A stretch of 64,000 bases of DNA from positions 186,001 to 250,000 of the forward strand of contig JBCAQO010000003.1 of NCBI GenBank assembly GCA_039111635.1. Reading direction: 5' to 3'. The DNA comes from Heterobasidion occidentale (lineage: Eukaryota > Basidiomycota > Agaricomycetes > Russulales > Bondarzewiaceae). Below are positions 4,104-63,800 of the stretch, piece after piece (within the stretch, counting starts at the first letter, position 1; the number at the start of each line of letters is the position of its first letter). Made by a program: the position numbers and the translations under genes. Under the pieces are notes generated by a model, which was not told the DNA's origin, did not search any database, and saw only the letters and a program-made list of their open reading frames with translations.

Positions 4104-7100
4104 ATGCCGGATTCGAATCCTGGATCTCAATTCCAGGACATCTGGAAATCGGCCCTCACGAAATACAAACAAGACACCGACCGCGACTATTTTGAAGGCT
4201 GGCTCGGGGAAGATTCCCCAGATGCTCTGTTTAGACTCCTCGACGACGAGCTGAAAAGTTTCAAGCAGTATCAGAAGAAGCAGAACAAAGTGCGAGCTGC
4301 GATTCAGCCCGTTCTTGAACTGGTGATTGTGTCCTCAAAGACGATCGGAGAATCTCTAGTGACGGCGAGCCCTGCATCTACCCATATTTCTGAGATGTAT
4401 ACCTAACTTCGGTGACAATAGGCATCCCCACCCGCGAAAGCGGTTTCTGTCGCCATTCGGGCGTTGCTAAAGGTGCGTGTTCCGATTATCAATTTGTTTT
4501 CTCCGGGCGAGTCTCAATGCCGTCGTCAATCTAGGCGGCAAGGGGCGTCAGTGGCAACTATGACATGATTATCGGGATGTTCGAGGAGATCAAAGGCTTC
4601 GTTGGACGGCTGAATTATCACACCCAACAAGAGATCACGGAAGCAATGAAGAAACTCATCGTCGACATCCTTGGGCAGTTACTTGTGGTGCTCGGAGTGG
4701 CTACGAAGCGGATGAAGCAGAATCGACTTGGTAGGAGGTTCCAGTGTTCATCGGATCAGAAGGCTGATATGTTCAAAAGCAATCTCGAGGAAGAATACGG
4801 AAGTGACGGAAGAAATGAAGACTTTGCGGACCTTATCAAATGAGGAGGTTCCACAGACCACTTCGTCGAACAAGCCAGTCACAAACCCTGAATCAGACTT
4901 CCTTGTCGCTTGGGATCTAGCGATCACCACCTACAACCAACACACCGAGAGTTACTATCTTATTGAAGGTGGTTTGGTGGCCAATTCCCCTGATGCTCTT
5001 TTTGGGATCCTCGACAACGAGCTGAACAGCTTCCAGGAGTATCGGAAGAAGGGAGAGAAAGTTCGACGTGCAATTGAGCCAGTTCTCAATATGGTGAATG
5101 TGTTCTCAGAGACAATAGGAGAAGGTCTGGCAATGGTGAGCAACATGTCTGCCCAGATTGTCGGGATGATGTTGAACTTTAATGATATCAGGCATTCCCA
5201 CCAGCGAAAGCGGTTTCTGTCGCTATCCGAGTCTTAATCAGGTGTGTGTTCGATTACCGTTTGAGGATGGATCTGAATGCCGTCATCGATCTAGGGTGCA
5301 AGGGACGTTAGTGCACACTATGACATGATTATCGAGATGTTCCAGAAGCTCAAAGGCTTTATGGGACGTCTGGACACTTACATCAAACACAATATCACTG
5401 ACAAACTCAAGGGCCTCATCATCGACATCCTTGCTCAGGTGCTCGTGGTGCTCGGAGTGGCCACAAAGTGGATAAACCAGAACCGTCTTTGTAAGAATGT
5501 TGCGTTATTCACTGGAGAATGTGGCTGATGGTAGGTTCTAGTTCAATATTCAAAGGTACTTGTCGGGAATAACACGGAAGTGACGGATGCGATGAGGAAA
5601 CTGGAAATGTTTATTCACCAGGAGGTTCCTATGGTCACCGCTGAGATTCATGGCAACGTGATGGCTATCAGAGGTATAGTCTTCATGAAGGATGATCTAT
5701 ACCTCATGTCTCATCCACGATGCAGACGATGGAATCCGACAGAGGATCCACTCCTGGCTCAAGCCACCTGATCCCACTACGAACTACAACACCGCTATCA
5801 AAACACGACAGGTGGGAACTGGCGAATGGTTTACCAAGGGACAGGATTTTCAAGACTGGATGAAGCTTCCAGGTTCATTCCTGTGGATTCATGGTATACG
5901 TGCGTCCACAAACCTTCGCCTATTGGAAGGTCGTTGACTGGAAGTATATACAGCTGGCAATGGCAAAACCGTTATTTGGTGAGGCTATTCCGACGTTAAA
6001 CTCGTTGAACCATTGCTGATGCGTCTATCGCTTCACAACAGCTCTACAGCTATCGAGACTCTTCAAGCTTCAGTCGAATCCTCTGCCGCGTTGGCCTACT
6101 TCTACTTCACATTCAACGACTCCGAGAAGGTACTCTATCGAAATATGCTGCATTCGCTTGTCTATCAACTCTGCAAGCAATGTCCTCAGCCGTTGAGAAA
6201 CCTCTACAACCGGAAGGACAACGGCTCCAAAGAGCCAACGGTGGAGGAGCTGCTCTATGTTTTGAAGATCACTGCTAGTTCATTCAGCCAGACTTACATC
6301 GTTCTTGACGGACTGGACGAGTGTGGTGGCTCAGAGCGAACAGATGTACTCAAATTCTTGACTGACATACAGAGCTGGAATCTGGAACCTCTTCATGTCC
6401 TTGCTGCAAGTCGGCCTGAGCAGGAAATCAAGGAGACCATGGAGACTTTGCGCGGCGCTTGTCACGTCGATCTTCATGACGCAAAGTCACAGATCAATGA
6501 CGATATCAAGGTGTACCTTGACAGTGTACTGCAGGACGACTCCCACCTGAATAAATGGGGACCTACGGAGAAGGCGCGAATCAGAGACACTCTTGTCGAA
6601 CGCGCAGATGGGATGTAAGTGAAGCTGATTGTCCGAATAGCATAAACACTGACGGGGAGTTCGCTATCAAGGTTTCAATGGGTGCGCTGTCAAATAGACA
6701 GCTTGCGACACTGCCATACACCCAAAGATCTCAAAAAGGCTCTAGGATCACTGCCGAAAACGCTGGACGACACGTATGAACGGATACTGAGAACCGTTCC
6801 AGATGACCACCAGGAGAAGATCCATCGAATCTTGGAATTCCTCTGCTTCTCCGAACGTCCGATGATGCTTGGAGAACTCGCCGAGGTTGTCACTGTGGCT
6901 ATAGATTCCGATGGAAAGGCCCATTATGACTCTGAGAATCGCATGCGCGATTCATCGGACGTGCTCACAATATGCAGCAGTTTGGTCTCGCTTTCAGCCA
7001 GTTCAGATGCCGCCAATGTTCTGAGATATGATAAATGGCACCCTGAATTTCTTCTCGAAACGGCCGCAGCGCGAATTCTGCGACTGTCGCACTTCTCTGT

Positions 7101-8692
7101 AAAAGAATACCTCTCCTCTCAAAGGATTCGAACAGGCCGAGCATCGGGTTACAGTGTCGATGCAGAGCTCGCCAGAAGGTCAATTGCCACGACATGTCTC
7201 GTATACCTGATGCGATTCAACACAGACAGACTAGACGAGAAAAGGATAAAAGGAGAGAAAGATGTTGCCCTAACTCTATATGCAGCACGGCATTGGATAT
7301 CCCATTTCCCGCAGCAGAGCCGCGACACTCCTCAGCCTCTACAGGATTTGGCACAAGAGTTCTTCCATATCCCCCGGCGAGCGAATTTTCTCAATTGGAT
7401 CAGGATGTATGATTTTGATGGCTACTCGCATGGCGTGGATTGGCATCGTGAAGCCAACACCATCCCTGATCCTCTTTACTATTCGTGCATGGCAGGATTT
7501 GTGGATGTCTCAAGATGGTTGGTCACCGAAGGCGCCGATGTCAATGCGCAAGGAGGTTATTACGGAAACGCGCTGCAGGCGGCGTGTTACGGTGGTCACA
7601 AATCCGTCGTGCGACTGCTGCTGGATCGAGGTGCCGTCATCAACGCGCAAGGAGGAATGTATGGGAACACGCTGCAGGCGGTGTGTTACGGTGGTCACGA
7701 ATCCATCGTGCGACTGCTGCTGGATCGAGGTGCCGACATGCATGCGCAAGGAGGATATTACGGGAACGCGCTGCAGGCGGCGTCTTACCGTGGCCACGAA
7801 TCCATCGTGCGACTGCTGCTGGACCGAGGTGCCGAAATCAACGCGCAAGGAGGACAGTATGGGAACGCGCTGCAGGCGGCGGCGGCGACTTACCATGGTG
7901 ACGAAACCATCGTGCAACTGTTGCTGGATCGAGGTGCCGACATGCACGCGCAAGGAGGATATTACGGGAACGCGCTGCAGGCGGCGGCGGCGTCTGTCCA
8001 TGGTGCCGAATCATTGTGCGACTGCTGCTGGATCGAGGTGCCGACATGCACGCGCAAGGAGGAATGCATGGGAACGCGCTGCAGGCGGCGTGTTACGGTG
8101 GTCACGAAACCATCGTGCGACTGCTGCTGGATCGAGGTGCCGGCATGCGCGCGCAAGGAGGATATTACGGGAACGCGCTGCAGGCGGCGTGTTACGGTGG
8201 TCACAAATCCATCGTGCGACTGCTGCTGGATCGAGGTGCCGACATGCACACGCAAGGAGGAATGCATGGGAACGCGCTGCAGGCGGCGTGTTACGGTGGT
8301 CACGAATCCATCGTGCAATTGCTGCTGGATGGAGGTGCCGACATGCACGCGCAAGGAGATATTACAGGAACGCGCTGCAGGCGGCGGCGGCGTCTTACCG
8401 TGGTGACGAAACCATCGTGCAACTGCTGCTGGATCGAGGTGCCGACATCAACGCCCATGGAGGAGCATACCGGAGTGCGTTGCAGGCAGCATTGGCCCCT
8501 CGTGGGTATCCGCCACGGAATCCTCACATAGTGATAATCTTGTGGGATGCCGGTGCGCGACTCTACACCATGCCATCCGAGGCGCATTCGGAGGAGTACA
8601 TCGCTCGGCTGCCAAAAATGGACCTGATGATGATGGATGAGCCTGCAAAAACTCTGGAGACGCGCAGCAGCAAGCGACGAAGCTGGTCCTGA
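4104..8692 (+). CDS. NLR-1: Goodbye-Goodbye-NACHT-ankyrin STAND protein, frame broken twice
   Basis: STAND/NLR-type receptor: nucleotide binding to NACHT is expected to drive oligomerisation after ligand sensing by the C-terminal repeats, a role tied to fungal non-self recognition and cell death. Start ATG at 4104. The first Goodbye domain spans exons at 4104 to about 4347, 4424-4470, 4545-4730 and 4760-4855; it then runs in frame into a second complete Goodbye domain (4856 to about 5680). Walker A is split by an intron (HGI-P-GNGKT, near 5895 and 5972), and Walker B TYIVLDGLDEC is near 6290-6325. An intron at 6615-6671 interrupts the codon of RADGM. A helical linker follows, then ankyrin repeats (7530-8490) and the tail LWDAGARLYTMPSEAHSEEY to a stop at 8690-8692. 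Two single-base losses, near 8009-8012 and 8355-8359, shift the frame inside the repeats. These are mutations or assembly errors. The first intron uses a gcgagc donor where its paralogues have GT. Confidence 0.85.
7530..8490 (+). repeat. ankyrin-repeat array of NLR-1 (about ten near-identical units)
   Basis: Tandem 99-base units, some 108 bases because of three extra GCG codons, encode the pattern AQGG-xYGNALQAA-xYGGHESIVRLLLDRGA. Units are almost identical in DNA. Differences concentrate at the residues after QGG, after QAA and after DRGA. Every unit length is a multiple of three and several frames lack stops, so long spurious open frames appear in alternative frames and on the other strand. 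Confidence 0.9.
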
Positions 8693-9495
8693 ATGAGGAA
8701 TTGAGATCACTGTGCGTGGATTCAGACATCTACTTCATCAAGGGACTCATTCACCGATTCGATTATTCTTTTCCAGTTCGGATCCGACGCTGTATATACA
8801 CGAGAGACGGAACCTTTGTACAGTGACAGCACCGGACATCGTACAGGCTAGGCTCGGGAGTACATACTTTGTAACAGAATGCAATGCACCGGAACACGCA
8901 TACAATCACACGAAGTTGCCTTGACATTTTGACCGACAAGGTCTGTCTAAAGTGCTGATACTTCGTCACAGGCTTCCAAATCCTGGTATATGTCGCTCAG
9001 GTAGAGATCAGCACATACAGCGAGTAGCGTCACACTGGAAGTAACAAATTGACAGTGAAAGCACCGAAAAAGAATAGCACCTCTCACCGTCCATGTGATG
9101 CCAGGTCAGACAGTACTCACCGCCGCACAGCATATATGCTATCCGCCGCTGACACGCCGATGCTACCACAGGTCTCGCACAATGATCTTTCTCTCTCGCG
9201 TCCTGCTGGTGGAACATAGAGAAAAACTGAGAGAAGTGAGCCAGGTAGAAACCAAACGTCAGCACACATTAAACCAGATTGCCTAGACAGCCGGCTGTCA
9301 GAGCGCATCTAGCAGTAGCTTGTCCTCACAATTTCCACAGTTGTCATCGCTCGTGCACGATGCCTCCATATCAGGAAGCCTGCAAAGGCACATGATACAC
9401 CCCGTCAAGGACGCGTATCTATGTCTAGAATAAGAGGCAAGGATAAACAGTTGATCATTTGCGAATGCGCATGCAGGAATCGGAGGCATACCGTA
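8693..9495. other. NLR-1 3' flank, no gene
   Basis: About 190 bases after the NLR-1 stop resemble the downstream flanks of NLR-2 (17089-17240) and NLR-4 (60890-60720 on the minus strand), including the run gctgtatatacacga. The duplicated unit therefore extends past the stop codon. Beyond about 8890 I see nothing recognisable. Confidence 0.5.
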
Positions 9496-9499
9496 CTTG

Positions 9500-10640
9500 G
9501 TGGCTTCTCTGTGTCTGAGTCGAGAAAGGAGCGCATCGAATGTAATGAGAACATGGGTTCAAAAATCCTACATAGACGACGACGAAGCCTGTGTCGAGTT
9601 CTTCCTGGAGAGATCATCGACTGTTCATTGAGTCGGAGGCGCACAAGCGCGCCCACATTGGCGCGTGTGTGCATGGCACACACGTTTGCTGCTCATCCCG
9701 CTCCCTGACTCCGTTCTCTATCCAAGTTCTTAATCGACTGACTCGTCCACATCGCACAGGCTCTCGCTCAGACGGCGTTGGTGATATATATCACCCATGC
9801 GTCTCGGCCATGTCTTGCACACGCCTCCCACGTACGCACATTGTCGTAGAACGCAGGCTGAACCCAACGCTGCTCTCATCTATCGACGCTCCGACGCGTC
9901 CACTCCACACTCGCCGCTGCATGACACACCCTGCTAGCATGACCTCTCCGCCCTTCTGCCTCGCTCGCCTCCACGATCACTTCCTCGACTTTGTACAATG
10001 CCACCCTGCCCTCCCAGCACTGTTTGCCTGGGTCTGGTCATAGATTAGTGCATTCCGCGGCCTGTCCGTGATCGTGACACCGTCTTGTTCCAGGTGCACT
10101 ACTTGCTCGACCGCGACGTGCTGCTATTGGTGGCTAGCTATGTACGTACCGTTTTGAATTTTCGGCTCTCGTGTCTTGACTTCTTTACCGCGCCATTTCT
10201 TCCTCCTCCGCCGTTTCTGCGCGGCCTTGTTTGCTTGGATGACACACGCCCAGCATTCCCCACCCTTCCCCTCCCGTACCTTCCTAATGATCCGAGGCCC
10301 CACTGACTCACCCCAGGTACCTCCACCGCCCTTATATGCGGTGCCCCTGATACCCCGCTCGCCCAGCCGCACGCCCTCCTGGCGGCATCAGCATTGCCAC
10401 ACTCAGCTGCTTCGACCCCCCGCGGGCTCGCTGCCGCCCTCGCCTGTGTGACCACGACCGCTGCAATGCAGATCACCAGCACGACCAGATCGCCCGCGCT
10501 GCTCCTCGGTGTCATCGGGTGGCACTTCCTATCGTCGGTACTCGCGCTCGCCAGTCGCGTTGCTCGCGAACGTACAGCCGCGCTATCCATGTGGTGCTGT
10601 GTGCCGCCGAGGTCGGTCGGGCAACCATGTGCGGAATCGA
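9500..10640 (+). pseudogene. HPP-family membrane protein pseudogene (copy C)
   Basis: The clearest forward HPP remnant. An exon near 10085-10141 ends VLLLVASY at a gtacgt donor. The intron ends ccccag at 10315. The next exon reads GTSTALICGAPDTPLAQPH, then after a short shift LAAALACVTTTAAMQITSTT, matching the family's conserved helices. The PAGATAL signature is lost (SPALLL). Near 10560-10600 the frame slips and LLANVQPRYP, the family's end motif, appears in another frame. Upstream, 9500-9680 aligns with the 5' flank of copy A. With the lost signature and shifted frame it is unlikely to be functional. Confidence 0.7.
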
Positions 10641-10869
10641 GCGTAAGCGTTGGGACGTGGAGCGGGTGGGCGTGCGCAGAGACAGCACAGCGGAGCCAGA
10701 AGTATGAATGCCACGCACGCGCCCCGGCGGTAGGTGATCGCGATCTCGTTCTATTGGGTATGCACCCTGCTGATCCTGATATCATGGCGAGGATCAAATA
10801 TATCTACACCCAAGTACTAAAGGCTCGACATTGATCACTATTGGGGCTGAGGCTCCTAATGACCCGCGA

Positions 10870-12240
10870 GCCTCAACCACTGTCTGCCGCACATGTCGAT
10901 CAGCTCAACGATGCGTTGTCCTAAAGCTGTTCAATAGATATGGAAGCGAGCAGCAGCAGTCAGAAGATGATTGAAGGGAAGGAGAGAAGGGACAGAGGAG
11001 CATAGACTTACCCTGCTTAACATATTTCTAAAAATATTGAGCTTTGCGTTCAGTCGCCTTGTCGAAGGGGTGCAAGAGCTCCTGGCAAAAGAACAAGTAA
11101 GCTAGAATGCGCCAGGATGAGACTGAGACAAGGAAGAAAGCAGATCAACTCACCGCCGATTCCAAACCTGGGTGACAGGCGTATACTTCACATAGCTATT
11201 GGCCCTGTGCTCTAAGATCGCAAACCGCCTCTTGACGTACCGAATGTTTCACGCTCGTGAACAGAAACCACAGGTCAGCGTCTTCGTCCTCGATACCTCG
11301 TGGCCCCTGCGGGACCTGACCTTTCCGGGCACCCGAAGGCATCATAGGCGAAGAAGAGCTGAGCAAGAAAGATCGGAAAGGCGTTGCCCGGGATGAATTC
11401 GAAACGCTCTGGTGTAGAGCAAGCTTATCGTCGGACGTAGTGACGAGGAGTTTGTGACGGACAAGAGGACGAGTTCGGGCAAGAAGCGGCAACAAAGTGT
11501 GAAAAAATTGTGGGCCGTCGGCAAGCCCATAGAACAGCTCCAAGCTCCAAGCCGTGTGCATGCCCTCAGCATGTGCCTTCAGGTGCTGCTGTGTACAAGA
11601 GCGTTTGTCACGCCACAGCTCGATGCAGGGACGGGCTGGCTCGATACGGGGAGGTGCGTACGTTCGGGCGTGCACGGCGAGATGGGCGTCGTGAAAGTAG
11701 AAATCGGAGTAGGAAGGGATGTGTATGATTGTGCATGGGCGCTGAAATAAAGATCATCAGACTGAGCAGGCCATGAGAAATGAGACGAAGAATATGTGGA
11801 AGCTAAAGGAAATGGTAAAATGGAAGGGAGAAGAGAAGTAAGCGCACGTATTCGGTATATATGCGAGCGCGCGAGCTCAGCGAGACGCAACGGCTTGGCG
11901 TGCGCCTCAAACGTCTTCAACTGCATATCAATACGCTTCCTCCCGCTTCTTCACAGTACCCGTACAATCAACCACCCATCCTTAGACGCAGATGATCTCG
12001 CGGCAGCATCAAAGACATAGGACGACGCTTGGCGTAGAGATTGGTGCTCGCGTCGATGTTCGCGTCGGCGTCGGCGTCGTAGACAGAGAGACGAAGTATG
12101 TATTATTGAACTGTTTGGGCTTCCCAATGACGCTCGTGGTGAGTATTGCGCCTCTTGCAGCCGTCGCCATCGGTCTCACAGGCGGTAAAGGAGGAGGGGT
12201 CGTTGTGGGTCCGTGGGATAGTGATGTAAGCAGCAATCAC
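10870..12240 (-). CDS. possible spliced gene of unknown function
   Basis: Not recognised. Several minus-strand pieces look coding. One begins MATAARGAILTTSVIGKP near 12160. Another near 11930 reads MQLKTFEAHAKPLRLAELAR and is followed by a donor-like site. A third (about 11730-11400) reads through YSDFYFHDAHLAVHARTYAP and WSLELFYGLADGPQFFH. Splice-like sites occur near 11155 (gtgagt) and 11090. I could not assemble one convincing frame, and no family is evident. It could be a real multi-exon gene or a degraded one; exon limits are unknown. Confidence 0.3.
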
Positions 12241-12837
12241 ACTAACCGAGTCGGAGGATATCGCTCCTGTCCGTGTTCGCTGAGCAGTCGACCATCCACA
12301 GAGTATCCACAAGTTACAGACTCGATCCGTGTTTCTTTCTTCCGACCTGCAGTGATCTGCGCATAAATCAGATGGGCGCTGAGTTTGGGCTCAGGGCTTT
12401 AGATTTTGGCTGGTTCGGCTGACGTCAGTCCACCGCCTTGTACTTGACCTTTTCTTCTTCTGAAGGCCAGAGGGCGGAGGCAGCACCGTCAGGTCTTTCT
12501 TGCTGACTCTTCGATTGTTACAGCAACGAGTGGTCACCCATTTCTCCCATTCCGGGCTGTGTCGGCTCATGTACATATCACCAATGTATCATCAAACATT
12601 ATCTGCGATATTGTCTTGCTCTCCGTGTCTTAGTATCGTGGGTGCGAAAATAATGTGCAGTTCCGGATCAGAGCTTCCCAGATAGTCAACATCGGCGCGG
12701 TATGTCCACGCACACAAGTTGTGCCAGTGCGCTTATTCTGCACCTTCTTTCATCGCATTAGCATCGCCTCCAGCTATACACGCTGCCTTAAGAGGCCCCC
12801 CACCCCTACACCCGCCCCACAATCCACCTTGTCGAAC
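12241..12837. other. intergenic stretch before NLR-2
   Basis: No gene seen. The last 30 bases before the NLR-2 start (ccaccttgtcgaac) match the leader found before every NLR of this family in the window. Confidence 0.4.
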
Positions 12838-15800
12838 ATGGCCGACATCGATCCTCACTCGCAGTTCCTCGACCTCTGGGTCTCTGCAATCAAACGCTAC
12901 AAGCAAGATACCAAATACGACATCCTCGAGGGCAGACTCGAGGCCGATTCCCCGATGCCCTTATCGTAATCATCGAGAGGGAGCAGGAAAAATTCAAGGA
13001 ATATCGGAAGAAGGGAGAAAGGATCAAGAATGCTATCAAACCAGTCCTTGAACTGGTCAACAGGTTCTCAGAGACGGTGGGAGAGAGTGTAGCAACCGTA
13101 AGCATCCTATTTGCTGTGCCCGAGATACGTACTTGATCGGAAAATCACTAGGCCTACCCACCGGCCAAGGCAGTCTCTGTTGCCGTTTGTGTATTGCTCG
13201 AGGTACGTGTTTTCATACTTAGTGAAGGGCAAAACTTCATCAGCTTATCGATTGTAGGCTGCGAAGGATGTCAGCGCAAACTATGACATGATCATCCGGA
13301 TATTCAGGAAGGTCAAGAGTTTCATTGAGCGACTGAGTATCTACGTCCAACAAGAGATCACTACACCGTTGCGGAAGATCGTTGTCGAGACCCTTGCGCA
13401 GTTACTTGTGGTTCTCGGAGTGGCCACGAAATGGATGAAGCAGAATCGTCTCGGTGAGGGTCTCGTCACGCTTGACCGAATCTCATAGCTGATGACATTT
13501 CTAGCTCGCTACTTGAAGTCATTGTTTGGAAAGAACACGGATATCCCAGACGCGATGGAGAAGCTGCAGGAGTTGTCGAGTCAGGAGGCCCCTATGGTCA
13601 CTGCCGTCATCTTAGCGACGACGGCTGGAAATGCTAAGCTGTTACATGTTCTAGAAGGCAGGTCTTTGTTCTTTCCGTATCAGTTTTGCTTGTGTAACTC
13701 TTATGATTGCTACACAGATGAAAGCCTTCGCAAGGACATCCGATCGTGGCTCAGCCCACATGATCCATCCACGAACCTCCAGACCGCTTTAAGCATGCGA
13801 CAACCTGGAACCGGCAAATGGTTCGTGAAGGGAGAAACATTCCGGGAATGGAAGACAGCTCCCAACTCGTTCCTTTGGATGCATGGTATTCGTATGTTCA
13901 TGGGTATACAGTTTAACTATTCGGTCACGTTCTGATGAAAGCTTTCCTACAGCTGGCAACGGAAAAACAGTCCTTTGGTAAGGTCTCTTTGAAATGGAGA
14001 TGTGTGGTGATGACTAACGCACCACAGCTCTACTGCCATCGAAACCCTCCAACGTGACCATTGCCCACCTTCATCGTCCACTGCTGTGGCGTATTTCTAC
14101 TTCGACTTTAACAATCCAGAGAAATTGCTTTTTAGGAGTCTCATACACTCGTTGGTCGCTCAACTCTTGTTCCAGGGCCCTGGGACTCCTGTCGCTTTAA
14201 AGGATCTCCGCGTGCGGAATCACAATGGCACTCAGCAGCCGAATCTGGGCGACCTGATCACCATTCTGAAGACAATGATTGGGTTGTTCGACCAGACCTA
14301 CATCGTGCTCGATGCGCTTGACGAATGCACTGGCCTAGAGCGAGACAGTTCTCTACGCTTCTTGGCCGAAATGAAGAGTTGGGATATCCAGACTCTGCAT
14401 GTTTCAGTCACAAGTCGCTCTTTACTAGAGATTGAGGAGGCAACAGAGCTCTTGCGCACACATTGCGTTGATCTCCATAGTACTGAAACATCTCACGTCT
14501 CACATGACATTGAGCGGTATCTTCAAAATATACTGGAAACCGACTCTCACCTTCGGAGATGGGGCACTACAGAGAAGGAGTTGATCACAGAAACTCTTCT
14601 CAAGCGTGCGGATGGAATGTAAGTGAAAAAAAATTGCCCGGATCGCATGGACACTGATGGGGAAATGGTTATCAAGGTTCCAATGGGTGCGCTGTCAACT
14701 GGACAGTTTGCGTCGCTGCATCACTACCAATGATCTTGAGATGGCTTTAAATACTCTGCCGAACACGCTGGACGCAACATATAATCGCATACTGCTAAAT
14801 ATTCCAGAGGAGCAGCAAGAGAAGTTCAAACTGATCTTGCAATTCCTGTGTTTCTCAGAACGTCCGATGGGACTTGACGAACTCGCCGAGGTCGTCACGG
14901 TGGCTATAAACTCTGAAGGAAAGCCACATTACGACTCGAAGAACCGCATGGGCGATATATCGTATTTACTCACGAAATGTGGCAGTTTGGTCTCTTTGTC
15001 ATCCAGGTCACATTTCCGATTCCTGCGACCTTTCCGACAGCTCCGTAGATCTCCTGACAGAGCATTCGCAGCGCGGATTGTCCAATTATCCCACTTTTCT
15101 GTTAAAGAATACCTCACGTCGAGATGGACTTTCAAAGGTGAAGCATTGGGCAATAGCTTCAGCGCGGAACTAGCCAACAGGTCGATCGCCATGACATGCC
15201 TCGCATATCTGATGCGATTCACAGACAAGTTGGATGAGAACAAGATGAGAGGAGACCAGGATGTCGCTCTAGCTTCATATGCGTCAGAGTACTGGGTCTC
15301 CCATTTCCAGAAGCAGGGTCCCGATGCTCATCCGCCTCTACAGGAATTGGCACAAGAGTTCTTCCATCCTTCCCGGCGAGGATACTTTTTGAATTCGATC
15401 AGGATGTACGAGTTGGATGAAGCCCACTATTTTTCAGGATGGCTTCGTGAATCCAACACGATCGCTAACCCTCTATACTATTCATGCTATGCAGGATTTC
15501 TGGATGTCACAAAATGGTTACTTACTACAGGCGCCGACATAAAGGCCCAAGGGGGATTGTACGAGAACGCTTTGCAGGCGGCGTCTGCGGGTGGTCACGA
15601 ATCCATCGTGCGACTGCTGCTGGATGCAGGTGCCGCCACGCATGTGCAAGGCGGATACTATGGGAATGCGCTGCAGGCGTCGTCTAACGGTGGTCACGAA
15701 TCCATCGTGCGACTGCTGCTGGATCGAGGTGCCGATATCAATGCGCAAGGAGGAGAGTACGGGAACACGCTGCAGGCGGCGTCTGCCGGCGGTCACGAAT

Positions 15801-17088
15801 CCATTGTGCGACTGCTGCAGGATCGAGGTGCTGACCCCAACGCGCAAGGAGGGAGGTATGGGAACGCGCTGCATGCGGCGTCTGACGGTGGTCACGAATC
15901 CATCGTGCGACTGCTGCTGGATGGAAGTGCCGCCATCAACGCGCAAGGAGGATTTCGCGGGAACGCGCTGCATGCGGCGTCTGCCGGTGGTCACGAATCC
16001 ATCGTGCGACTGTTGCTGGACGAAGGTGCCGATATAAACGCGCAAGGAGGAGGGTATGGGAACGCGCTGCAGGCGTCGTGTGCACATCATGACGAATCTA
16101 CCGTGCAACTGCTGCTGGATCGAGGCGCTGAGATCAACGCACAAGGAGGATATTACGGGAACGCGCTGCAGGCGGCTTCTGTAGGTGCTCACGAATCCAT
16201 CGTGCGACTGCTGCTGGATCGAGGTGCCGACCCCAACGCGCAAGGAGGGCATTACGGGAATGCTTTGCAGGCGGCGTCTTACGGTGGTGACGAATTCATC
16301 GTGCAACTGCTGCTGGATGGAGGTGCCGATATCAATGCGCAAGAAGGAGAGTATGGGAACACGCTGCATGCGGCGTCTGCCATGGTCACGAAACCGTCGT
16401 GCGACTGCTGCTGGATCGAGGCGCCGACATCAACGCGCAAGGAGGACTTTACGGGAACGCGCTGCAGGCGGCGTCTGCCGGTGGTCACGAATCCATCGTG
16501 CGACTGCTGCTGGATCGAGTTGCCGACATCAACGCGCAGGGGGGACGTTACGGGAACGCGCTGCAGGCGGCGTCCAACGGTGGTCACGAAGCTGTCGTGA
16601 GACTGCTGCTGGATGGAGATGCCGATATCAACGCGCAAGGAGGATATTACGGGAACGCGCTGCACGCGGCGTCTACAGGTGGTCACGAAGCTGTCGTGCG
16701 ACTGCTGCTAGATCGAGGTGCTGAGATCAACACACAAGGAAGAGACTCGAGGAATGCACTGCAGGCAGCGTCTACTCATGGACACAAAGCCATCGTGCGA
16801 CTGCTACTGGATCGAGGTGCCAAGGCCAGCGTGACAGGAGGACTCTACACTGGAGTATTATGGGAATCATTGGCTTCCCTGTGCACACGCCATCGATCGT
16901 CTCGAGAGCGCAGCAACAGAGAGACGATAACGATATTATGGGATGCCGGCGCCAGACTCTACACTATGCCGTCTGAGGCACATTCAGAAGAGTACATCTA
17001 TCGGCTGCCAGCCATAGATTCAACGACTTTGAGAAGGGATGCGGAGACTCCGAAACCGCACAGCAGCAGGCGACGAAGCTGGTCTTGA
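12838..17088 (+). CDS. NLR-2: Goodbye-NACHT-ankyrin STAND protein with two frame breaks
   Basis: Paralogue of NLR-1 with one Goodbye domain. Start ATG at 12838. Goodbye exons lie at 12838-13097, 13152-13202, 13258-13453 and from 13505. Walker A is split over an intron (HGI-P-GNGKTVL, near 13885 and 13955); Walker B TYIVLDALDEC is near 14298-14330. The codon of RADGM is interrupted by an intron ending near 14676. A helical linker follows to about 15520, then about fourteen ankyrin repeats and the conserved tail LWDAGARLYTMPSEAHSEEY, with a stop at 17086-17088. Compared with NLR-1, one base is missing in exon 1 at 12950-12954 (SPDAL becomes SPMPLS and a stop) and one in the repeats at 16379-16383. 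Restoring each base gives an uninterrupted protein, so it is either a very young pseudogene or carries assembly errors. Confidence 0.85.
15530..16850 (+). repeat. ankyrin-repeat array of NLR-2 (about fourteen units)
   Basis: Consecutive 99-base units encode the same consensus as NLR-1. The framework GNALQAASxGGHESIVRLLL hardly changes, whereas the residue after QGG (L, Y, E, R, F, G, H) and the two after DRGA or DGSA vary from unit to unit. The last units (TQGRDSRNALQAAS and SVTGGLY) are more diverged, as expected for array ends that escape homogenisation. Confidence 0.9.
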
Positions 17089-48176: not shown

Positions 48177-49976
48177 TTAGAGCGGCCTGACGCTGGTCAC
48201 AGTCAGACTCTGCGTCCGTCGGCGATTGCCTGTGGATTTTGATATCATCACTGGCGGAGAGAGACAGGGATCGCGTTTGCGGATGTGGCCGGTCATACTG
48301 TTGGCTCCGCCTCCCCGCCCGTGCCCGCGCGCTCTCCCTCCATGTCTCCCGCGCTCAGCTGCACGAGGTTTGGCGGCGCGGGCGCGGGCTGCGAGAACCG
48401 CCACGCGGGGCAGCGCCTCTGCACGTTGTTCACGAGCAGCGCGACGGGAAGCAAGCGTTTCCGAAACTTTGGGATGGCCTTCTAACGCCATCGAGTCCAT
48501 GTCTGGTAGCCCATAGATGTACTCCTCCGAATGCGCCATGGACGGTATGGAATAGAGCCTAGCACCGGCATCCCATAGGGCCATCGCCATCTCTTTGCTC
48601 AGCTTCCGAAGCGCAAAGGAACCGGGCGGTCGAAAATCAGGAGTCAGCGCCGCCCGCAACGCACTCCCGAACCGTCCTCCCTGTACATTGGCCTTTGCGC
48701 CTCGATCCAGCAGCATTTGTACAATGGCAAGGTGTCCATGCTGAGATGCCGCCTGAAGTGCATTCTCATGAATCCCTCCCCGAGCATCGATATCAGAACC
48801 TTGATCCAGCAAGAGGCATACGATGGCCTCATGGCCGTTGTGGGATGCTGCCTGCAATGCACTCCCGTGGAGTCCTCCTTGAGCGTTTACCTCGGCACCT
48901 TGCTCCAGCAGAAGTTGCACGATGAGTCCGTGACCAGACAGAGAAGCCATCTGCAGCGCATTCCCAAAAACCCCGCCTTGGGCATTGACTTCTGCACCGC
49001 GATCTAGCAGCAGTCGCACGGTGGCTTCATCGTTTTGCGTACACGCCGCCTGCAGTGCAGTCTCGTGCTCTCCTCCTCGAGCATTGACCTCAGCACCGCG
49101 GTCCAGCAGCAAGTGTACGACGGCTTCGTGGCCACCCGAAGATGCCGCCTGCAACGCATTTCCGAAAATCCCTCCTGGTGCATTGACGTCGGCACCCCGG
49201 TTCAGCAGCAGTTGCAAAATGACTTCGTGACCGCCTTGAGACGCTGCCTGGAGCGCGTTCCCAAAATCTCCATCTTGTGCATTAACATCCGCACCTCGGT
49301 TCAGTAGCAGACGCACAATGGCTTCGTGACCACATGCGGATGCCGCCTGCAGCGCGGTCCCGGGCTCCCCTCCTGGTGCATTAACATCGGCACCTTCCTC
49401 CAGAAGCAGCTGCACGACGGCTTCATGCCCACTTTCAGATGCCACCTGCAATGCGGTTCCCCGCCATCCTCCTTCAGCATTGACCTCCGCGCCTCGCTCT
49501 AGCAGCAGTCGCACGATGACTTCATGACCACCTTGAGATGCTGCCTCCAGCGCGTTCCAATAGTCTCCTGTCTCTGCATTAACCTCCGCACCACGATTCA
49601 GTAGCAGGCGCACAATGGCTTCGTGACCACACGCAGATGCCGCCTGCAGCGCGGTCCCCAGCTCCCTTCCTGGTGGATTGACCTCGGCACCGTGCTCCAG
49701 AAGCAGCCGCACGACGGTTTCGTGGCCACCTTCAGATGCTAGCTGCAGTGCATTTCCCCGCCATCCTCCTTGAGCGTTGACCTCCGCGCCTCGATCCAGC
49801 AGCAGTCGGACGATGACTTCGTGACCGCCTTCAGACGCCAACTGTAGTGCGTTGCTAGGGTCTCCCGGCGCCTCAAGATCCGCACCTCTATCCAGCAGCT
49901 GTCGCACGACGGCTTCATGCCCATCTCGAGACGCCGCCCGCAGCGCTTTTCCACTGTGTTGTCTTTGCTCGTTCAT
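48177..49976 (-). CDS. ankyrin-repeat protein, NLR-derived, with HPP-derived overprinted C-terminus
   Basis: An uninterrupted 599-residue frame from MNEQRQHSGKALRAASRDGH at 49976. It holds about fourteen ankyrin repeats of the family pattern (AEVNAQGG-x-GNALQLASEGGHEVIVRLLLDRG), more diverged from each other than in NLR-1 or NLR-2. The NLR tail follows (LWDAGARLYSIPSMAHSEEY, DMDSMALEG). Near 48448-48456 the sequence switches to the 3' end of an HPP gene, read in a different frame from HPP (the codons for LLVNNVQRR become AAREQRA); a basic Ala/Arg/Gly-rich end continues to the stop. No Goodbye or NACHT domain precedes it: only a remnant of NLR exon 1 lies upstream. It may be expressed as an ankyrin-only decoy or regulator, or be a silent derivative. 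Confidence 0.8.
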   Translation of the reverse strand: MNEQRQHSGKALRAASRDGHEAVVRQLLDRGADLEAPGDPSNALQLASEGGHEVIVRLLLDRGAEVNAQGGWRGNALQLASEGGHETVVRLLLEHGAEVNPPGRELGTALQAASACGHEAIVRLLLNRGAEVNAETGDYWNALEAASQGGHEVIVRLLLERGAEVNAEGGWRGTALQVASESGHEAVVQLLLEEGADVNAPGGEPGTALQAASACGHEAIVRLLLNRGADVNAQDGDFGNALQAASQGGHEVILQLLLNRGADVNAPGGIFGNALQAASSGGHEAVVHLLLDRGAEVNARGGEHETALQAACTQNDEATVRLLLDRGAEVNAQGGVFGNALQMASLSGHGLIVQLLLEQGAEVNAQGGLHGSALQAASHNGHEAIVCLLLDQGSDIDARGGIHENALQAASQHGHLAIVQMLLDRGAKANVQGGRFGSALRAALTPDFRPPGSFALRKLSKEMAMALWDAGARLYSIPSMAHSEEYIYGLPDMDSMALEGHPKVSETLASRRAAREQRAEALPRVAVLAARARAAKPRAAERGRHGGRARGHGRGGGANSMTGHIRKRDPCLSPPVMISKSTGNRRRTQSLTVTSVRPL

Positions 49977-50905: not shown

Positions 50906-50978
<73 letters not shown>

Positions 50979-51017
50979 CGGGATACTGGACGAGGGGGGG
51001 GGGGGGGGGGGGGGGGG
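50906..51017. repeat. very long poly-G tract, interrupted
   Basis: Seventy-two consecutive G (50906-50977), sixteen other bases, then 24 more G (50994-51017). It is preceded by a (GT)n run (50895-50905). It falls exactly at the 3' end of the minus-strand protease gene, where it would encode polyproline. Such a tract is unstable and hard to sequence, so its length is uncertain and it may be an assembly artefact. Confidence 0.9.
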
Positions 51018-54788: not shown

Positions 54789-56677
54789 TTATTGTGGATT
54801 CTGCCTTAGAGCGAGAAGGAGAAACTCCAAGATTCTCTGGATCTTGCCTTGGTGGTCAACTGGAATGTTTCTCAGTCTGCGTTCATACGTCCCATCAAGC
54901 GTTTTAGGCAGAGTGTTCAAGGCCGTCTTGAGATCAACTATGACACAGTTCCGCAGGCTGTCTAGTTGACAACGCACCCACTGGAACCTTGATACAGAAC
55001 TCTCTCTCAGTGTTTCTGTGCGTGCCACGCAGCTTTGATATCAACTTACATGCCGTCTGCGCGTGCGACAAGCGCATTTCTGATCAACGCCTTCTCCTTT
55101 GCTTCCCAATTCCTCAGATTGGGATCCTTCTCTAGTTGAGCTATGAGAAATTGATTAATGTCTTAGTCGATACGGGACGTTGCGTCGTGGAGATCGACGT
55201 GACGAACGCCAGGCAAAGACTCCATTTTCTCTTTAATTTCCTGCTCCGGTCGACTGGCTGCCAGAACGTGAAGAGGTTCCAGATTCCAGCTCTGTATTTT
55301 GGCCAAGAATTCGAGCACATTTGTTCGCTCTGATCCAACGCACTCGTCCAGTCCATCCAGAACAATGTATGTATGGCTGGAGAGGACAATGGTCTTCTGG
55401 AGAACATCGAGCAGCTCGTTCACTGTTGGCTGTTGAAAGCCGCTGTCGGTCTGATCGTAGAGTTCTCTCAACGGGCTAGGACATTGTCTCGAAATTTGGA
55501 AAACAAGCGAATGCAGCATGTTTCGATATACCAGCTTCTCGGAGTCGTTGAAGTAGAAGTAGAAGTAGGCCAACGCGACAGAGGAATCGGTTCGACGTTG
55601 CAGAGCCTCGATGACGGTCGAGCTATCGTATGTAAGGTGTATCAGTGACATCCATACAATCTGATCTCAAAATACCCTGACCAAATAATTGTTTTCCCAT
55701 TCCCAGCTGCATAAATGTATCGTTAGAGTTCTTAGCAAGAGACGAGTCTCGGGCGCACGTTTTCCTCGGATCCACAAGAATAACCCTGGTGTCGTCGTCC
55801 AGTCCACAAAAGCTTGGCTTTGTATGAACCATGCGCCGGTTCCGACCTGTCGGGCTTCTATAGCTGTATTGTAGTCTGTGGTAGGATCAGGAGGCTTGAG
55901 CCACGAGCAAATCTTGTCTCGGAGCGCGCCGTCTACACCATCGATGGTATATATGAGACATAGCACATGATCACTACCTGGAAAGAAGAACGCACCTTCT
56001 AACGCTTGTGCATTCTGCGATATTGTAGTTGTCGTCGCTAAGATCACTGCAGTGACCATAGGGACCTCCTGGCTGGATAAGATCTGCAGTGTCCCCATCG
56101 CATCGGACACTTCTGTATTCTTCCCGAAGAGTACCTTCCTGTATTGAACTACCAAGTTGCTCCATCAGCGACGTCCTCGGCTAAGCAATATGAGCTCTTA
56201 CCAAGACGACTTTGTTTCATCCACTTTCTAGCTACTCCGAGCACCACGAGCACCTGGGCATGCCGACAATGATTCTCTTCAGATTGTCGGTGATCTCGTG
56301 TTGGACATAAGCATCCAAACGTCCCATGAAGCCCTTGAGCTTCTCAAACATGTCAATAATCATGTCATAGCGTCCACTGACGTCTTTTGCAGCCTAGATC
56401 GATAACGACAATGAGATCCGTGCTCAAATGAGTACCGGGACACGTACATTGAGCAATACACAAATAGCGACAAAACCCGCTTTCGCTGGCGCAAATGCCT
56501 AACATCGTCAAAGTCAGGTACATGTCTCTGGAGTTTGGCAGACACGGTGCTCACTGTCGCGAGGCTGTCTCCGATCGCACCTGATGATAAATTCACCAGT
56601 TCCAAAACTGACCGTATCGCATGCCGTATTCGTTCTCCCCTCTTGCGATACTCCTTGAATCGGTTCAGCTCCTTGTC
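54789..56677 (-). pseudogene. NLR-3b: broken Goodbye-NACHT gene, joined to NLR-3a
   Basis: A second NLR copy fused directly to NLR-3a. It starts inside a Goodbye domain (KELNRFKEYRKRGERI, 56677), so its first codons are missing. The next Goodbye exon (AAKDVSGRYDMIIDMFEKL) contains a four-base deletion near 56270 that shifts the frame. Walker A is kept (GNGKTIIW near 55695), though the usual HG before it reads RG. Walker B TYIVLDGLDEC is near 55350. An in-frame TAA at 55163-55165 interrupts the sequence after TSRID. The linker continues (FQWVRCQLDSLRNCV, LPKTLDGTYE) to ILEFL near 54812, where homology ends; no ankyrin repeats remain. Several independent lesions make function very unlikely. Confidence 0.85.
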
Positions 56678-58670
56678 CAGCGTTTTTGGCAGAGATCCTA
56701 GAGCCATCTCTAGATCTTTGTGGGTAACGCAGCGTTGCAAGCTCTCCAATTGACAGTGCACCCATTGAAACCTTGATAGCGAATTTCACATCAGTGTTTA
56801 TGCCTCCGGACAATAAAGTTCACTTACATTCCATCTGCACGTTCGACAAGAGTGTCTCTGATCAACGCCTTCTCCGTAGGCCCCCATTTCTTCAGGTAGG
56901 AGTCGCCCTGCAGTGCAGTGTCAAGATACACCTGAATATCTTCATTGATACGTGACTTTGCGTCGTGAAGATCGACGTGATGAGCTCTGTGGAAAGACTC
57001 CGTCTTCTCCTTAATTTCCTGCTCAGGCCAACTTGCAGCGAGCACGTGAAGAGACTCTAGATCCCAGCTCTTGACTTTGGCCAAGAATTTGAGTACATCT
57101 GTTCGCTCTGAACCAACGCACTCGTCCAGTCCATCAAGAACGATGTAGGTCTGGTTGGAGGAGCCGGCGCTCTTCTTCAAAACATCGAGCAGCTCGCTCA
57201 CTGTTGGCTGCCGTGAGCGGTCGTTGGTCCGGTTGTAGAGGTCATTTAAGGGGCCGGTGGTCCCAGGGCATTGGTCCCAGAGTTGGCAGACAAGCGAATG
57301 CAACATCTTTCGGTACACTAGCTTCTCGGAATCGTTGAAGTCGAAGTCGAAGTAGGCCAATGTCACAGACGCATTAGCTCGACGTTGAAGAGTCTCGATG
57401 ACCGTAGAGCTGTCGTATGTAAGGAATATCAGTGATGTTCAATGCATCCAGCCCCATGAGAGCCTTACCAGATGATTGTCTTGCCGTTGCCAGCTGTATG
57501 CACCTATCATAAGAAACTATCGCGAAAACAATTAAAATAAACAAAATAAAAGCTTATGGCCTCACGTATACCATGGATCCACAGGAAGGAGCCTGCCGTC
57601 TTAGTCCAGTCCACAAGATCCTCTCTTTGTATAAACCAGTCACCAGTTCCAAACTGTCATGCTTCTATAGCTGCATTGTAGTTCGTGGTCGGATCGGGTG
57701 GCTTGAGCCACGAGTGGATCTTCTCTCGGAGTCTATTATCTATATTATCGAGTGATAGTGAGACAAATATAGCAATATTTCGCACATAAGACCATACCTT
57801 CAAGATTTTTGACGTTGTGAAGGATCTCAACAGCGATCATAGGGATCTCCCGGTTGATGAACATTCGCAATTTCCCCATCAAATCTGGCACCTCCGTATT
57901 ATTTCCGACTAGTATCTTTGAGTATTGAACTAGGACCAACCATCAGCCATGTGATCAACTGAGCAGCAAAAACCTCTTACGAAGACGGTTTTGCTTTATC
58001 CACTTTGTGGCCACTCCGAGCACCACGAGCACCTGAGCGAGGATGTCGACAATGATTCCCCTTAATTTGTCGGTGATATTGTGCTTGATGTAAATATCTA
58101 GACGTTCAACGAAGCCTTGGATCTCCTCGAACATTTCTATAATCATGTCATAGTTTCCAACGACATCCGTTGCAGCCTAGATCGATAACGACATTAAGAT
58201 TCATCCTCAAACGAAGACCAGAACACATACGTTCAGCAGCACTCGAATGGAAACAGAGACCGCTTTCGCTGGTGGGAATGCCTGATATCGTCAAAGTTGA
58301 ATGTTATCTCGGAAATCTGGGCAAAATTGGTGTTCACCGTCGCTAGAGCTTCTCCTATCGTCTCTGAGAATACATTCACCGTATTGAGAACTGGCGCAAT
58401 TGCATTTCGGATCTTCTCCCCCTTCCTCCGGTAGTCCTTGAGACTGTTCAGCTCGTTGTCGAGGATCCCAAACAGTGCATCAGGTGAATCGGCCCCCAGC
58501 CCGTCTTCAATCAGATAGTAGCTCTCAGTGTGTTGGTTGTAGGTGGCGATCGCTCGGTCCCAGATTACAAGGAAGTCCGATTCAGGGTTTGTATCTGGCG
58601 TGTTCGACAAAGTGGTCTGTGGGACCTCGTGGTTGGATATGGCCCGCAGATGTTCGCGTCCAATGCCAGT
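56677..58670 (-). pseudogene. NLR-3a: truncated Goodbye-NACHT gene, both ends lost
   Basis: It begins within an internal exon (REHLRAISNHEVPQTT, near 58660) that runs in frame into a Goodbye domain (NPESDFLVIWDRA). This is the same fusion junction as in NLR-1, so the lost 5' part probably encoded another Goodbye domain. The normal start ATG of that domain is ACG. Further exons: AFPPAKAVSVSIRVLLN, NYDMIIEMFEEIQGFVERL, then VQYSKILVGNNTEV. A TGA at 57657-57659 replaces the CGA arginine codon seen in NLR-3b and NLR-4. The Walker A exon is near 57480; NACHT with VLDGLDEC lies at 57366-56824. After LPKTLD at 56677 the sequence jumps into the Goodbye domain of NLR-3b. Upstream it is cut by the 3' end of HPP copy D. 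Confidence 0.85.
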
Positions 58671-60894: not shown

Positions 60895-63800
60895 TCAAGA
60901 CCAGCTTCGTCGCCTGCTGCTGTGCGGTTCCGGAGTCTTCATATCCCTTCTCAACGTCATCGAGTCCATGTCTGGTGGCAGCCGATGGATGTACTCCTCT
61001 GAATGTGCCTCGGACGGCATGGTGTAGAGTCTGGCACCGGCATCCCACAATATCGCCACCACACGCGGACGGACTCGACGATAAACTCGGGGTATCAATG
61101 CTGCCTGCAACACACTCCCGTATTCTCCTCCTTGAGCGTTTAACTCCGCGCCTCGCTCCAGCAGCAGTCGCATGATGGCTTCATAACCACCTCGAGAAGC
61201 CGCCAGCAGTGCATTCCCAAATTCTCCTCCTTGCGCGTTGATCTCAGCACCTCGATCTAGCAGCAGTCGCACAACGGCTTCGCGACCATTGTGCGATGCC
61301 ACCTGCAACGCGTTCCCCCATCTCCCTTGTGCATTGATCTCGGCACCTCGATCCAGCAGCAGTCGCGCAATAGTTTCGTGACCACCCTGAGATGCCGCCT
61401 CCAGCGCATTTGCATAAGATCCTGCTTGCACGTTGATCTCCGCACCTCTATCCAACAGCAGTCGCACGATAGATTCTCGACCGAAAGCAGATGCGGCGTG
61501 CAGCGCGTTTCCATGCAGTTTGATGTTGGCACCTCGATCTAGCAGCAGTTGCACGATAGTTTCGTGACCACCCGACGACGCCAGCTGCAGTGCGTTTCCG
61601 TCGAGCCTTTCTTGGGCATCGGTGTTGGCACCTCGATCCAGCAGCAGTCGCACGATGGCTTCGTGACCGCGATACGACGCCACCTGGAGTGCGGTCCCAT
61701 TGAACCTTCCTTGTGCGTTGGCGTCGGCACCTCCATCCAGCAGCAGCCGCACGATGGATACATGATTACGGGCAGCCGCCGCCTCCAGCGCGTTTACGTA
61801 GTGTCCACCTTGCTGGAGCATATCAATCTGTCGATCTAGCTGCAGTTGTATGGATTCGTGACCACTGAATGACGCCACCTGCAGAACATTCTCATTGAGC
61901 CTTTCTTTCCCGTTGGTGTTGGCACCTCGATCCAGAAGCAGTTTCACGATGGATTCGTGACCTCCGAACGACGCCGCCTGCAGAGCGTTCAGCCCTAACC
62001 TTCCTGTCGCGTTGATGTCGGCACCTCGATCCAGCAGTAGTTGCACAATGTATTTGTAACCATGGGCTGACGCTGCCCGCAACGCGTTCCCATAGCGTCC
62101 TCCTTGTGCGATGCTGTCGGCACCTCGATCCAGCAGCAGTTGCACAATGGATTCGTGACCACGAATAGATGCCGCCTGCAGCGCGCTCCCGTGATCTCCT
62201 CCTTGCGCGTTGACATTAGCACCTTCGGTCAGTAACCATTTTGAGATATCTAGAAATCCTGCACTGCATGAATAGTACAGAGGGTCAGGGATGGTGTTGG
62301 CTTCACGATGCCATTTTGGGGAATCCCCGCTTCGATCCAGATCATACATCCTGATCCAATTCAAGAAATATGCCCGCCGGGAAGGATGGAAGAACTCTTG
62401 TACCAGTTCCTGTAGAGGCTGAGGAGTGTCGGGGCCCTGCTGCTGGAAATGGTCGACCCAATGCCGTGCTGCATATAGAACTAGGGAGACATCCTTTTCT
62501 GTTTTGATCCTGTTCTCGTTCAACCCGTCTGTGTCGAATCGCATCAAGTATACGAGGCATGTCATGGCAATTGACCTGTTGGCGAGCTTCGCATTGACAC
62601 TGTAATCCAACGCTCGACCTATTTGAATCCGTTTAGAGAGCAAGTACTCTTTGACAGAGAAGTGCGACAGTCGAATGAATCGGGCTGCCATCGTATCGTG
62701 AGGGAATACAGGTCTCCACAGCTGAAATCGCCGAACATCGGCGGCACCTAGACCGGCTGACATAGAGACCAAACTGCCACATATCGTGAGCACGTCCGAC
62801 GAATCGCGCATCCGGTTCTCATAGTCATAATGAGCCTTTCCTTCAGAATCTGTAGCCACAGTGACAACCTCGGCGAGTTCTCCAAGCATCATCGGACGTT
62901 CTGAGAAGCAGAGAAATTGCAAGATTACATGGAAGTTCTCTTGGTGCTCATCCGGAATGTTTCGCAGAATCCGTTCATACGTCTCGTCCAGCGTTTTTGG
63001 CAGAGATCCTAAAGCCGTCTCGAGATCTTTGTGGGTAACGCAGCGTTGCAAGCTCTCCAATTGACAGCGCACCCATTGAAACCTCGATAGCACAGCACAT
63101 TCCCAATTAGTGTTGATGTTTCCGGACAATAAACCTCACTCACATCCCATCTGCACGTTTGACAAGAGTGTCTCTGATCAACGTCTTCTCCATAGCTCCC
63201 CATTTCTTCAGGTGGGTGTCGTCCTTCAGTACACTGTCAAGGTATACCTGAATGTCTTCATTGTTACGTGACATTGCATCGTGCAGATCAACGTGACGAG
63301 CGCCAGGCAAAGTGTCCATTTGTTCCTTGATTTCCTGCTCAGGCCGACTTGCAGCGAGAACGTGAAGAGGCTCCAGATCCCAGCTCTTGACTTTGGCCAA
63401 GAATTTGAGCACCTTTGTTCGCTCTGAGCCAACGCACTCATCCAGCCCATCAAGAACAATGTAAGCCTGGCTGAACGAGCCGGCGCTCTTCTTCAGAACA
63501 TCGAGCAACTCGCCCTCTGTTGGCTGCCATGAGCCGTCGTCAGTCCGTTTGTAGAGGTCTATCAACGAGTCTGGGTGTTGTTGACATAGTTGAAAGACAA
63601 GCGAATGTAGCATATTTCGATGGATCAGTTTCTCCGGGTCATTGAAGTTGAAGTAGAAATATGCCAGCGCGACAGAGGAATCAACTCGATGTTTGAGAGT
63701 CTCGATAACGGTAGAGCTGTCGCATACAAGGTGTATCAGCAGCATTCAGAGTATCGTGCCCCAGGATAGCCTTACCAAATGATTGTTTTGCCGTTGCCAG

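Follow-up and report, generated by a model that had tools for sequence, protein, structure and literature searches.

Two neighboring NLR genes with C-terminal ankyrin arrays

We analyzed a 64-kb stretch of the Heterobasidion occidentale genome (the window; contig C3, positions 186001-250000, in an assembly of 45.05 Mb and 159 contigs) that holds two neighboring fungal NOD-like receptor (NLR) genes, NLR-1 and NLR-2, each composed of Goodbye-like N-terminal exons, a NACHT-type domain and a C-terminal ankyrin array. An earlier reading of the letters alone (the sequence-only reading) had placed two arrays of 99-base ankyrin units between window positions 7530 and 16850 and had taken them for a specificity generator. 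Indeed, both arrays were recovered there, behind NACHT-type domains: Tandem Repeats Finder gave 7546-8464 (9.1 copies) for NLR-1 and 15529-16821 (13.1 copies) for NLR-2, and two opposite-strand arrays (48873-49839 and 61098-62213) bring the number of 99-bp arrays in the window to four.

The NACHT-type domain upstream of the repeats scores 87.5 bits in NLR-1 and 78 bits in NLR-2 against the NPHP3_N family (PF24883, cut-off 24.8), and a whole-genome NPHP3_N search likewise returned matches at the NACHT exons of both genes. A second family, PF05729, reached 23.1 bits in NLR-1, below its cut-off of 26.7, and was unlisted for NLR-2. From the reading frames, the P-loop of NLR-1 is predicted to be interrupted by an intron. 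The Goodbye family (PF17109, cut-off 24.8) matched four exon pieces at 18.5-23.9 bits, every one of them below the cut-off. The parts of the two genes, in window positions, are as follows.

4192..4736, + strand: NLR-1 Goodbye-type N-terminal exons, partial first copy, about 760 bp upstream of the second
4911..5495 (limits approximate), + strand: NLR-1 Goodbye-like N-terminal exons (PF17109, 23.9 and 18.5 bits)
5689..6618, + strand: NLR-1 NACHT-type (NPHP3_N) exons (PF24883, 26.0 and 87.5 bits)
6649..7533, + strand: NLR-1 linker from NACHT to ankyrin array, a single open frame
7552..8458, + strand: ankyrin array of NLR-1 with 9 units, each 99-105 bp (frame broken in units 5 and 9)
8459..8692, + strand: terminal ankyrin unit of NLR-1, then its conserved C-terminal tail (last residues KRRSWS)
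12840..13456 (limits approximate), + strand: NLR-2 Goodbye-like N-terminal exons (PF17109, 20.1 and 18.9 bits), with a frame break in exon 1
13717..14622, + strand: NLR-2 NACHT-type (NPHP3_N) exons (PF24883, 25.5 and 78 bits)
14654..15532, + strand: NLR-2 linker from NACHT to ankyrin array
15551..16836, + strand: ankyrin array of NLR-2 with 13 units, each about 99 bp (frame broken in unit 9)
16837..17088, + strand: NLR-2 C-terminal tail, ending RRRSWS

The C-terminal tail is conserved between NLR-1 and NLR-2. We also observed that the Goodbye-like N-terminal exons are tandemly duplicated before NLR-1 (4192-5496), with an upstream copy that is partial and diverged: the direct repeats 4192-4397/4963-5168 are 71% alike and 4512-4736/5272-5496 are 77% alike, and the upstream piece 4535-4741 by itself gave no Pfam match.

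Variation among units is concentrated at a few positions

In the register set by alignment to chains of designed ankyrin repeat proteins (DARPins), the unit reads G1 G2 x3 Y4 G5 N6 A7 L8 Q9 A10 A11 S12 x13 G14 G15 H16 ... D29 I30 N31 A32 Q33. The description of these units as almost identical was overstated, since mean pairwise identity is 0.80 for amino acids and 0.89 for nucleotides in NLR-1 (6 units), and 0.72 and 0.80, respectively, in NLR-2 (12 units). Identity to the consensus is 0.870 in NLR-1 (7 of 9 units, 231 amino acids) and 0.828 in NLR-2 (12 of 13 units). Moreover, variation had been described as confined to a few positions, but it is only concentrated there: with frame-broken units excluded (two in NLR-1 and one in NLR-2), 16 of 33 sites vary in NLR-1 and 24 of 33 in NLR-2, and the four most variable sites carry 38% and 36% of the entropy, respectively.

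We assessed selection by counting and simulation, unlike the HyPhy tests of Dyrka et al. 2014 (PMC4986451). Neutral evolution was simulated on each array's own tree at its silent divergence (5000 simulated sites, giving a floor of p = 0.0002; p values uncorrected over 33 sites). Position 3, the residue after QGG that the sequence-only reading had seen change from unit to unit, lay above neutral expectation in both NLR-1 and NLR-2 (p = 0.0002 each, the floor). The second proposed spot, after QAA, held in part: position 13 was raised in NLR-2 (p = 0.002), whereas all 7 NLR-1 units used have Tyr there (frame-broken unit 5, which was excluded, has Val) and vary at positions 12 and 14 instead. Weaker signals appeared in NLR-1 at sites 12 (p = 0.045), 14 (p = 0.023) and 29 (p = 0.045) and in NLR-2 at site 26 (p within 0.02-0.045). 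The third spot, after DRGA, fared badly, because the rise at 29 was confined to NLR-1, and positions 29-30 were raised neither in the NLR-2 simulation nor in a pool of arrays.

This pool took in 14 arrays of this genome, with 123 of the 159 units found; units scoring below 40, arrays left with fewer than four units and two near-duplicate arrays (L010 and L012) were dropped. In the pool, nonsynonymous difference (pN) exceeded pooled synonymous difference (pS) at sites 3, 13 and 14 only (95% bootstrap interval over arrays above 0); thus, the expected excess of nonsynonymous change was found at these three sites. Furthermore, mean pN was 0.40 at the seven positions that we take to be randomized in DARPins, compared to 0.16 elsewhere (permutation p = 0.0002). 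The same set gave p = 0.003 in NLR-2 by itself and p = 0.21 in NLR-1 by itself (0.15 in a second count).

The raised positions lie on the predicted binding face

Among published classes of ankyrin positions, the concave class includes 3, 13 and 14 (with the paper's numbering shifted by +2), while the basal class corresponds to 29-30 (PMC8415598). In a structure model of NLR-2 from window positions 15443-16333 (297 residues, mean predicted local distance difference test score, pLDDT, 94.4), helix A runs from position 7 to 14; in most units, position 3 is flanked by strand residues 1 and 5. Position 3 is the hairpin tip, position 13 is the end of the inner helix, and positions 3, 13 and 14 are all on the concave, predicted binding face. 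Thus, the proposal that the variable residues map near the hairpin tip and the exposed side of the helix stands for these three positions and falls for 29-30. The residues flanking DRGA were also considered as ligand contacts, and we rejected them, since they belong to the basal class and show no pooled excess.

Units are homogenized within arrays and appear to be exchanged between neighbors

We compared the units with those of other arrays in the genome, for which 39 genome DNA matches were obtained and 14 stretches were taken outside the window. In NLR-1, 6 of 6 units had their nearest DNA neighbor within their own array, as did 10 of 12 in NLR-2, compared to 62 of 123 units over all arrays; units of NLR-1 and NLR-2 were closest to units of their own array relative to the other arrays compared, the neighbor excepted. 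To set units against flanks, we used 10 loci in 45 locus pairs. Between NLR-1 and NLR-2, pS is 0.46 in the flanks and 0.21 between their units, the largest gap among the 45 pairs (one other pair rounds equal). The longest exact match between the two arrays, 49 bp, is also the longest among 133 array pairs (median 22; in this comparison the stretch of L008 is 4553 bases and includes non-repeat DNA). In addition, 12 of 12 NLR-2 units are on average nearer at silent positions to NLR-1 units than to one another. Since the units of the two genes are closer than their flanks at silent sites, this analysis of the sequence suggests that units are exchanged between NLR-1 and NLR-2.

Repeat-induced point mutation would raise the TpA/ApT ratio. 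As this ratio was 0.38 and 0.40 in the arrays, below the 0.59 of the window, we found no sign that this process shaped them. Of the claim that concerted evolution acts together with diversifying selection, then, homogenized repeats, sharing between loci and the excess at 3, 13 and 14 speak in favor, whereas the DRGA spot and NLR-1 taken alone do not.

Other alleles appear to differ in unit number and at contact positions

The database comparison covered 328 proteins, drawn from the best 120 of 4613 to 7563 matches per query. Among the matches listed, the C-terminal tail signature was present in 4 of 328 proteins (P0083, P0122, P0213 and P0284), and, judged by their units, none of these four is an allele of NLR-2. 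Over 224 amino acids, P0122 and the NLR-1 linker share 98.2% identity, whereas the paralogs compared reach at most 75% over the same length; P0122 has 3 units plus the terminal unit, and its frame stays open from a point inside the linker as far as the stop. P0213, obtained with the 3' part of NLR-2 as query, has 6 units, the first of them frame-broken, and is judged to come from the NLR-1 locus by its out-of-frame lead-in, compared by eye. Thus, unit counts at the NLR-1 locus are 9 in the window, 6 in P0213 and 3 in P0122, although the latter two come from European Nucleotide Archive (ENA) contigs and a collapsed assembly could explain them; the same caution applies to the P0003 and P0138 comparisons below. 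Two of the intact P0213 units correspond to window units 3 and 4, with 32/33 and 33/33 residues identical when a two-Ala insert is omitted, and the sole residue difference is at position 3. This insert, GCGGCG, lies in frame in NLR-1 units 4, 5 and 9 (7849-8458), where it adds two Ala to the inner helix, and it is present in P0122 and P0213 as well.

For NLR-2, we compared the first three units with P0003, which is 87.3% identical in the flanking linker (292 aligned positions). Contact sites differed at 6 of 9 and other sites at 22 of 90 (p = 0.014). In contrast, a low-identity array on contig C7 (L013) and P0138 were collinear over six units and differed at 2 of 18 contact and 11 of 180 other sites. 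From this contrast, some arrays appear to turn over while others stand still.

Frame breaks in the arrays are probably assembly errors

Judged from the spacing of units, single bases are missing in units 5 and 9 of NLR-1 and in unit 9 of NLR-2, and one further break was read by eye in NLR-2 exon 1; the sequence-only reading had overlooked all of them. Such breaks are common in this family, as at least one was flagged in 9 of 18 arrays. They are also present outside of it: the genome's best HSP70 match and a CCT subunit each show a mid-domain frame change with no room for an intron. HSP70 and CCT subunit genes are essential.

We examined small indels in duplicated stretches. Three copies of one ankyrin NLR, L010, L011 and L012, lie on the same contig (C3:3439-3493 kb and 3722-3731 kb); L011 and L012 share 99.8% identity over 8.5 kb and lie about 280 kb apart, oppositely oriented. 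Over 8508 bp, these two differ by 3 substitutions and 12 indels of 1-2 bases. Substitutions and indels numbered, respectively, 218 and 18 in L010/L011 and 216 and 19 in L010/L012 (best piece only), 11 and 10 in L015/L016 (46 and 10 in the second piece), 66 and 10 in L017/L018 (1 and 0 in the second piece), 111 and 9 in L019/L020, 0 and 1 in L021/L022, 1 and 1 in L021/L023, 1 and 2 in L022/L023, 32 and 6 in L024/L025, and 33 and 13 in L026/L027. Small indels were present in all duplicate comparisons longer than 1 kb, with substitutions more numerous in the diverged pairs. Indels exceeded substitutions in L011/L012 and, with only 1-2 indels, in L021/L022 and L022/L023; the first L015/L016 piece was near parity. 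Several smaller contigs repeat parts of large ones (C33/C14, C24/C7, C125/C4, C116/C2, C134/C7 and C17/C10), as if they were leftover alternative assemblies or recent duplications.

The HSP70 and CCT breaks together with the indels between L011 and L012 make assembly error likely for the array breaks too, and we consider it probable, by a fair margin over even odds, that these are residual assembly indels. If so, the organism itself may carry intact copies of NLR-1 and NLR-2. Before broken frames in arrays of this kind are read as pseudogenes, the assembly should be checked. Frame-broken repeats are reported in real Podospora het-d and het-e alleles, where one deletion was called a likely misassembly (PMC12222747).

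Proposed reshuffling of recognition units, and the alternatives

We assign a probability of roughly 0.75 to the interpretation that NLR-1 and NLR-2 are neighboring NLRs whose units reshuffle and whose contact positions are selected, such that the arrays sense a putative non-self or modified-self ligand. Specifically, unequal crossing-over or gene conversion would mix units within and between the two genes, selection would retain new residues at contact positions, and the array, upon sensing its putative ligand, would trigger the N-terminal effector. The label of specificity generator is consistent with the site pattern and with sharing between loci; it sits poorly with NLR-1, which is not significant by itself, and with assembled frames that are broken in both genes.

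Several results weigh against this interpretation. In NLR-1 by itself, the concentration at binding positions is not significant (permutation p = 0.15-0.22), and its dN/dS, 1.09 from 6 units, fits relaxed constraint as well; the overall dN/dS of NLR-2 is 0.56, that is, constrained. The published concave class misses significance in both NLR-2 (p = 0.07) and NLR-1 (p = 0.22). Units fall below flanks in silent change in 28 of 45 locus pairs, so this relationship is not general. If the history is star-like and the units of NLR-1 sit near the consensus, this could partly yield the silent closeness of the two genes; it does account in part for the closeness of NLR-2 units to those of NLR-1, but not for the gap between flanks and units. 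The allele unit counts rest on ENA contigs that could be collapsed. Finally, P0213 (unit 1, NLR-1 locus) and P0138 (an L013-type array), from other assemblies, carry a break inside the array, and given these, the breaks in NLR-1 and NLR-2 may be real.

This last point bears on the alternative that survives best, which we nevertheless consider unlikely: that these are decaying NLR copies, pseudogene arrays with real one-base losses, whose diversity reflects relaxed constraint. The breaks in both genes, in half of the family arrays and in P0213 and P0138, the dN/dS of NLR-1, and the stops and frameshifts in wild Podospora het-d and het-e repeats (PMC12222747) are all compatible with decay, but it does not explain why the C-terminal tail is open and conserved past the breaks or why P0122 remains open to its stop. 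Moreover, the HSP70 match and CCT subunit break in the same manner, the small indels between L011 and L012 outnumber their substitutions, and pN above pS at site 3 is not produced by relaxed constraint.

A neutral recent amplification, in which units are alike through recent duplication and vary where they are least constrained, with neither positive selection nor recognition, seems to us quite improbable. Against it stand two sites that exceed the neutral simulation, 3 (in NLR-1 and NLR-2) and 13 (in NLR-2), as well as the three sites that exceed the silent rate in the 14-array pool; it can draw on the low dS of NLR-1 (0.11), on the many variable sites and on a concave class that is not significant in either array alone. 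Least probable is that unit number and some unit differences are errors in assembling near-identical repeats, given that the DNA of NLR-2 units differs on average by 20%, sufficient for placing long reads, that P0213 reproduces window units 3 and 4, and that errors would not be expected to show a selection-like site bias, even though small indels are frequent in this assembly and high-identity tandem repeats are hard to assemble (PMC12222747).

Relationship to known repeat-bearing receptors

High-identity ankyrin NLRs under such selection were published in 2014, and thus NLR-1 and NLR-2 are a further case of a known pattern. In that work, 10% of annotated ankyrin repeats of fungal NLRs had high internal conservation, and in Podospora anserina two ankyrin loci showed repeat-number polymorphism, one of them with five positively selected sites; selected and polymorphic sites lay on the concave face and hairpin, with one exception (Dyrka et al. 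2014, PMC4986451). The genes described there (Pa_3_8560 and Pa_2_8180) resemble ours in having NACHT and a C-terminal ankyrin array, possibly in repeat-number differences (here from ENA contigs that could be collapsed) and in selected sites on the concave face and hairpin (here site 3 in both arrays, 13 in NLR-2, and 3, 13 and 14 in the pool), but have a PNP_UDP N-terminus where NLR-1 and NLR-2 are Goodbye-like. By our own measure of identity to consensus, rather than T-REKS, NLR-1 (0.870) exceeds the 85% over at least 100 amino acids used in that study and NLR-2 (0.828) does not. Thus, NLR-2 is not a strict high-internal-conservation member, though it shows the same site pattern.

WD40 repeats follow the same regimen, with exchange between loci (Paoletti et al. 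2007, PMC1805685). Like our genes, the HNWD genes het-d, het-e and het-r of Podospora anserina share repeats within and between loci and have a few positively selected positions on the binding face; they also show repeat-number polymorphism (PMC1805685, PMC12222747), for which NLR-1 is a candidate. HNWD genes are defined by WD40 repeats, and the repeats of NLR-1 and NLR-2 are ankyrin; the former combine a WD40 beta-propeller with a HET effector and have proven allorecognition, whereas the latter are Goodbye-like and known from sequence. DARPins, in turn, are engineered and NLR-1 and NLR-2 natural. These genes add a further natural case in which ankyrin NLRs change fastest at surface positions randomized in DARPins. 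Among PDB entries, the NLR-2 array matches a solved chain, 6ne1 chain B (3.3e-30), which is named 'Pfs, NACHT and Ankyrin domain protein' and may be a natural fungal scaffold for units of this type.

The surrounding NLR cluster

The remaining two arrays of the window are of low unit identity.

48681..49964, - strand: N3, third 99-bp ankyrin array, frame intact, unit identity 0.60 (amino acids)
61132..62202, - strand: N4, fourth 99-bp ankyrin array, frame intact, unit identity 0.58 (amino acids)
6040-6414, 14017-14418, 55250-55624, 57031-57411 and 63344-63718: NPHP3_N loci of the cluster inside the window

The N4 array sits in a 744-amino-acid open reading frame behind a NACHT exon. In the whole genome, the NPHP3_N search placed 18 NACHT-type loci within 282 kb (C3:119-401 kb) and a second dense group at C10:512-949 kb. 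An exact (TTAGGG)5 was not found anywhere in the assembly. Clusters are delimited in PMC12258605 by a 40-kb distance rule and a rule on intervening genes; under the distance rule alone, the C3 group divides into 5, 5 and 8 loci. That paper gives at most 5 NLRs per cluster for Sordariales.

Tentatively, and with less than even odds, the C3 cluster might be a shared reservoir of ankyrin cassettes, in which neighbors such as NLR-1 and NLR-2 trade units while low-identity arrays such as N3 and N4 have stopped and their specificities are fixed. If neighboring receptors do trade units, a contact residue arising in one receptor could be copied into the array of another. High- and low-identity arrays lie adjacent in this one cluster, and together with the DARPin-like sites this allows the cassette-exchange model to be tested at two loci next to each other. 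Between the N3 array and the nearest NACHT exon on the same strand, we noted a stretch of about 70 consecutive G with a shorter G run after it (50906-51017), which may be a sequencing artifact or the mark of a broken gene.

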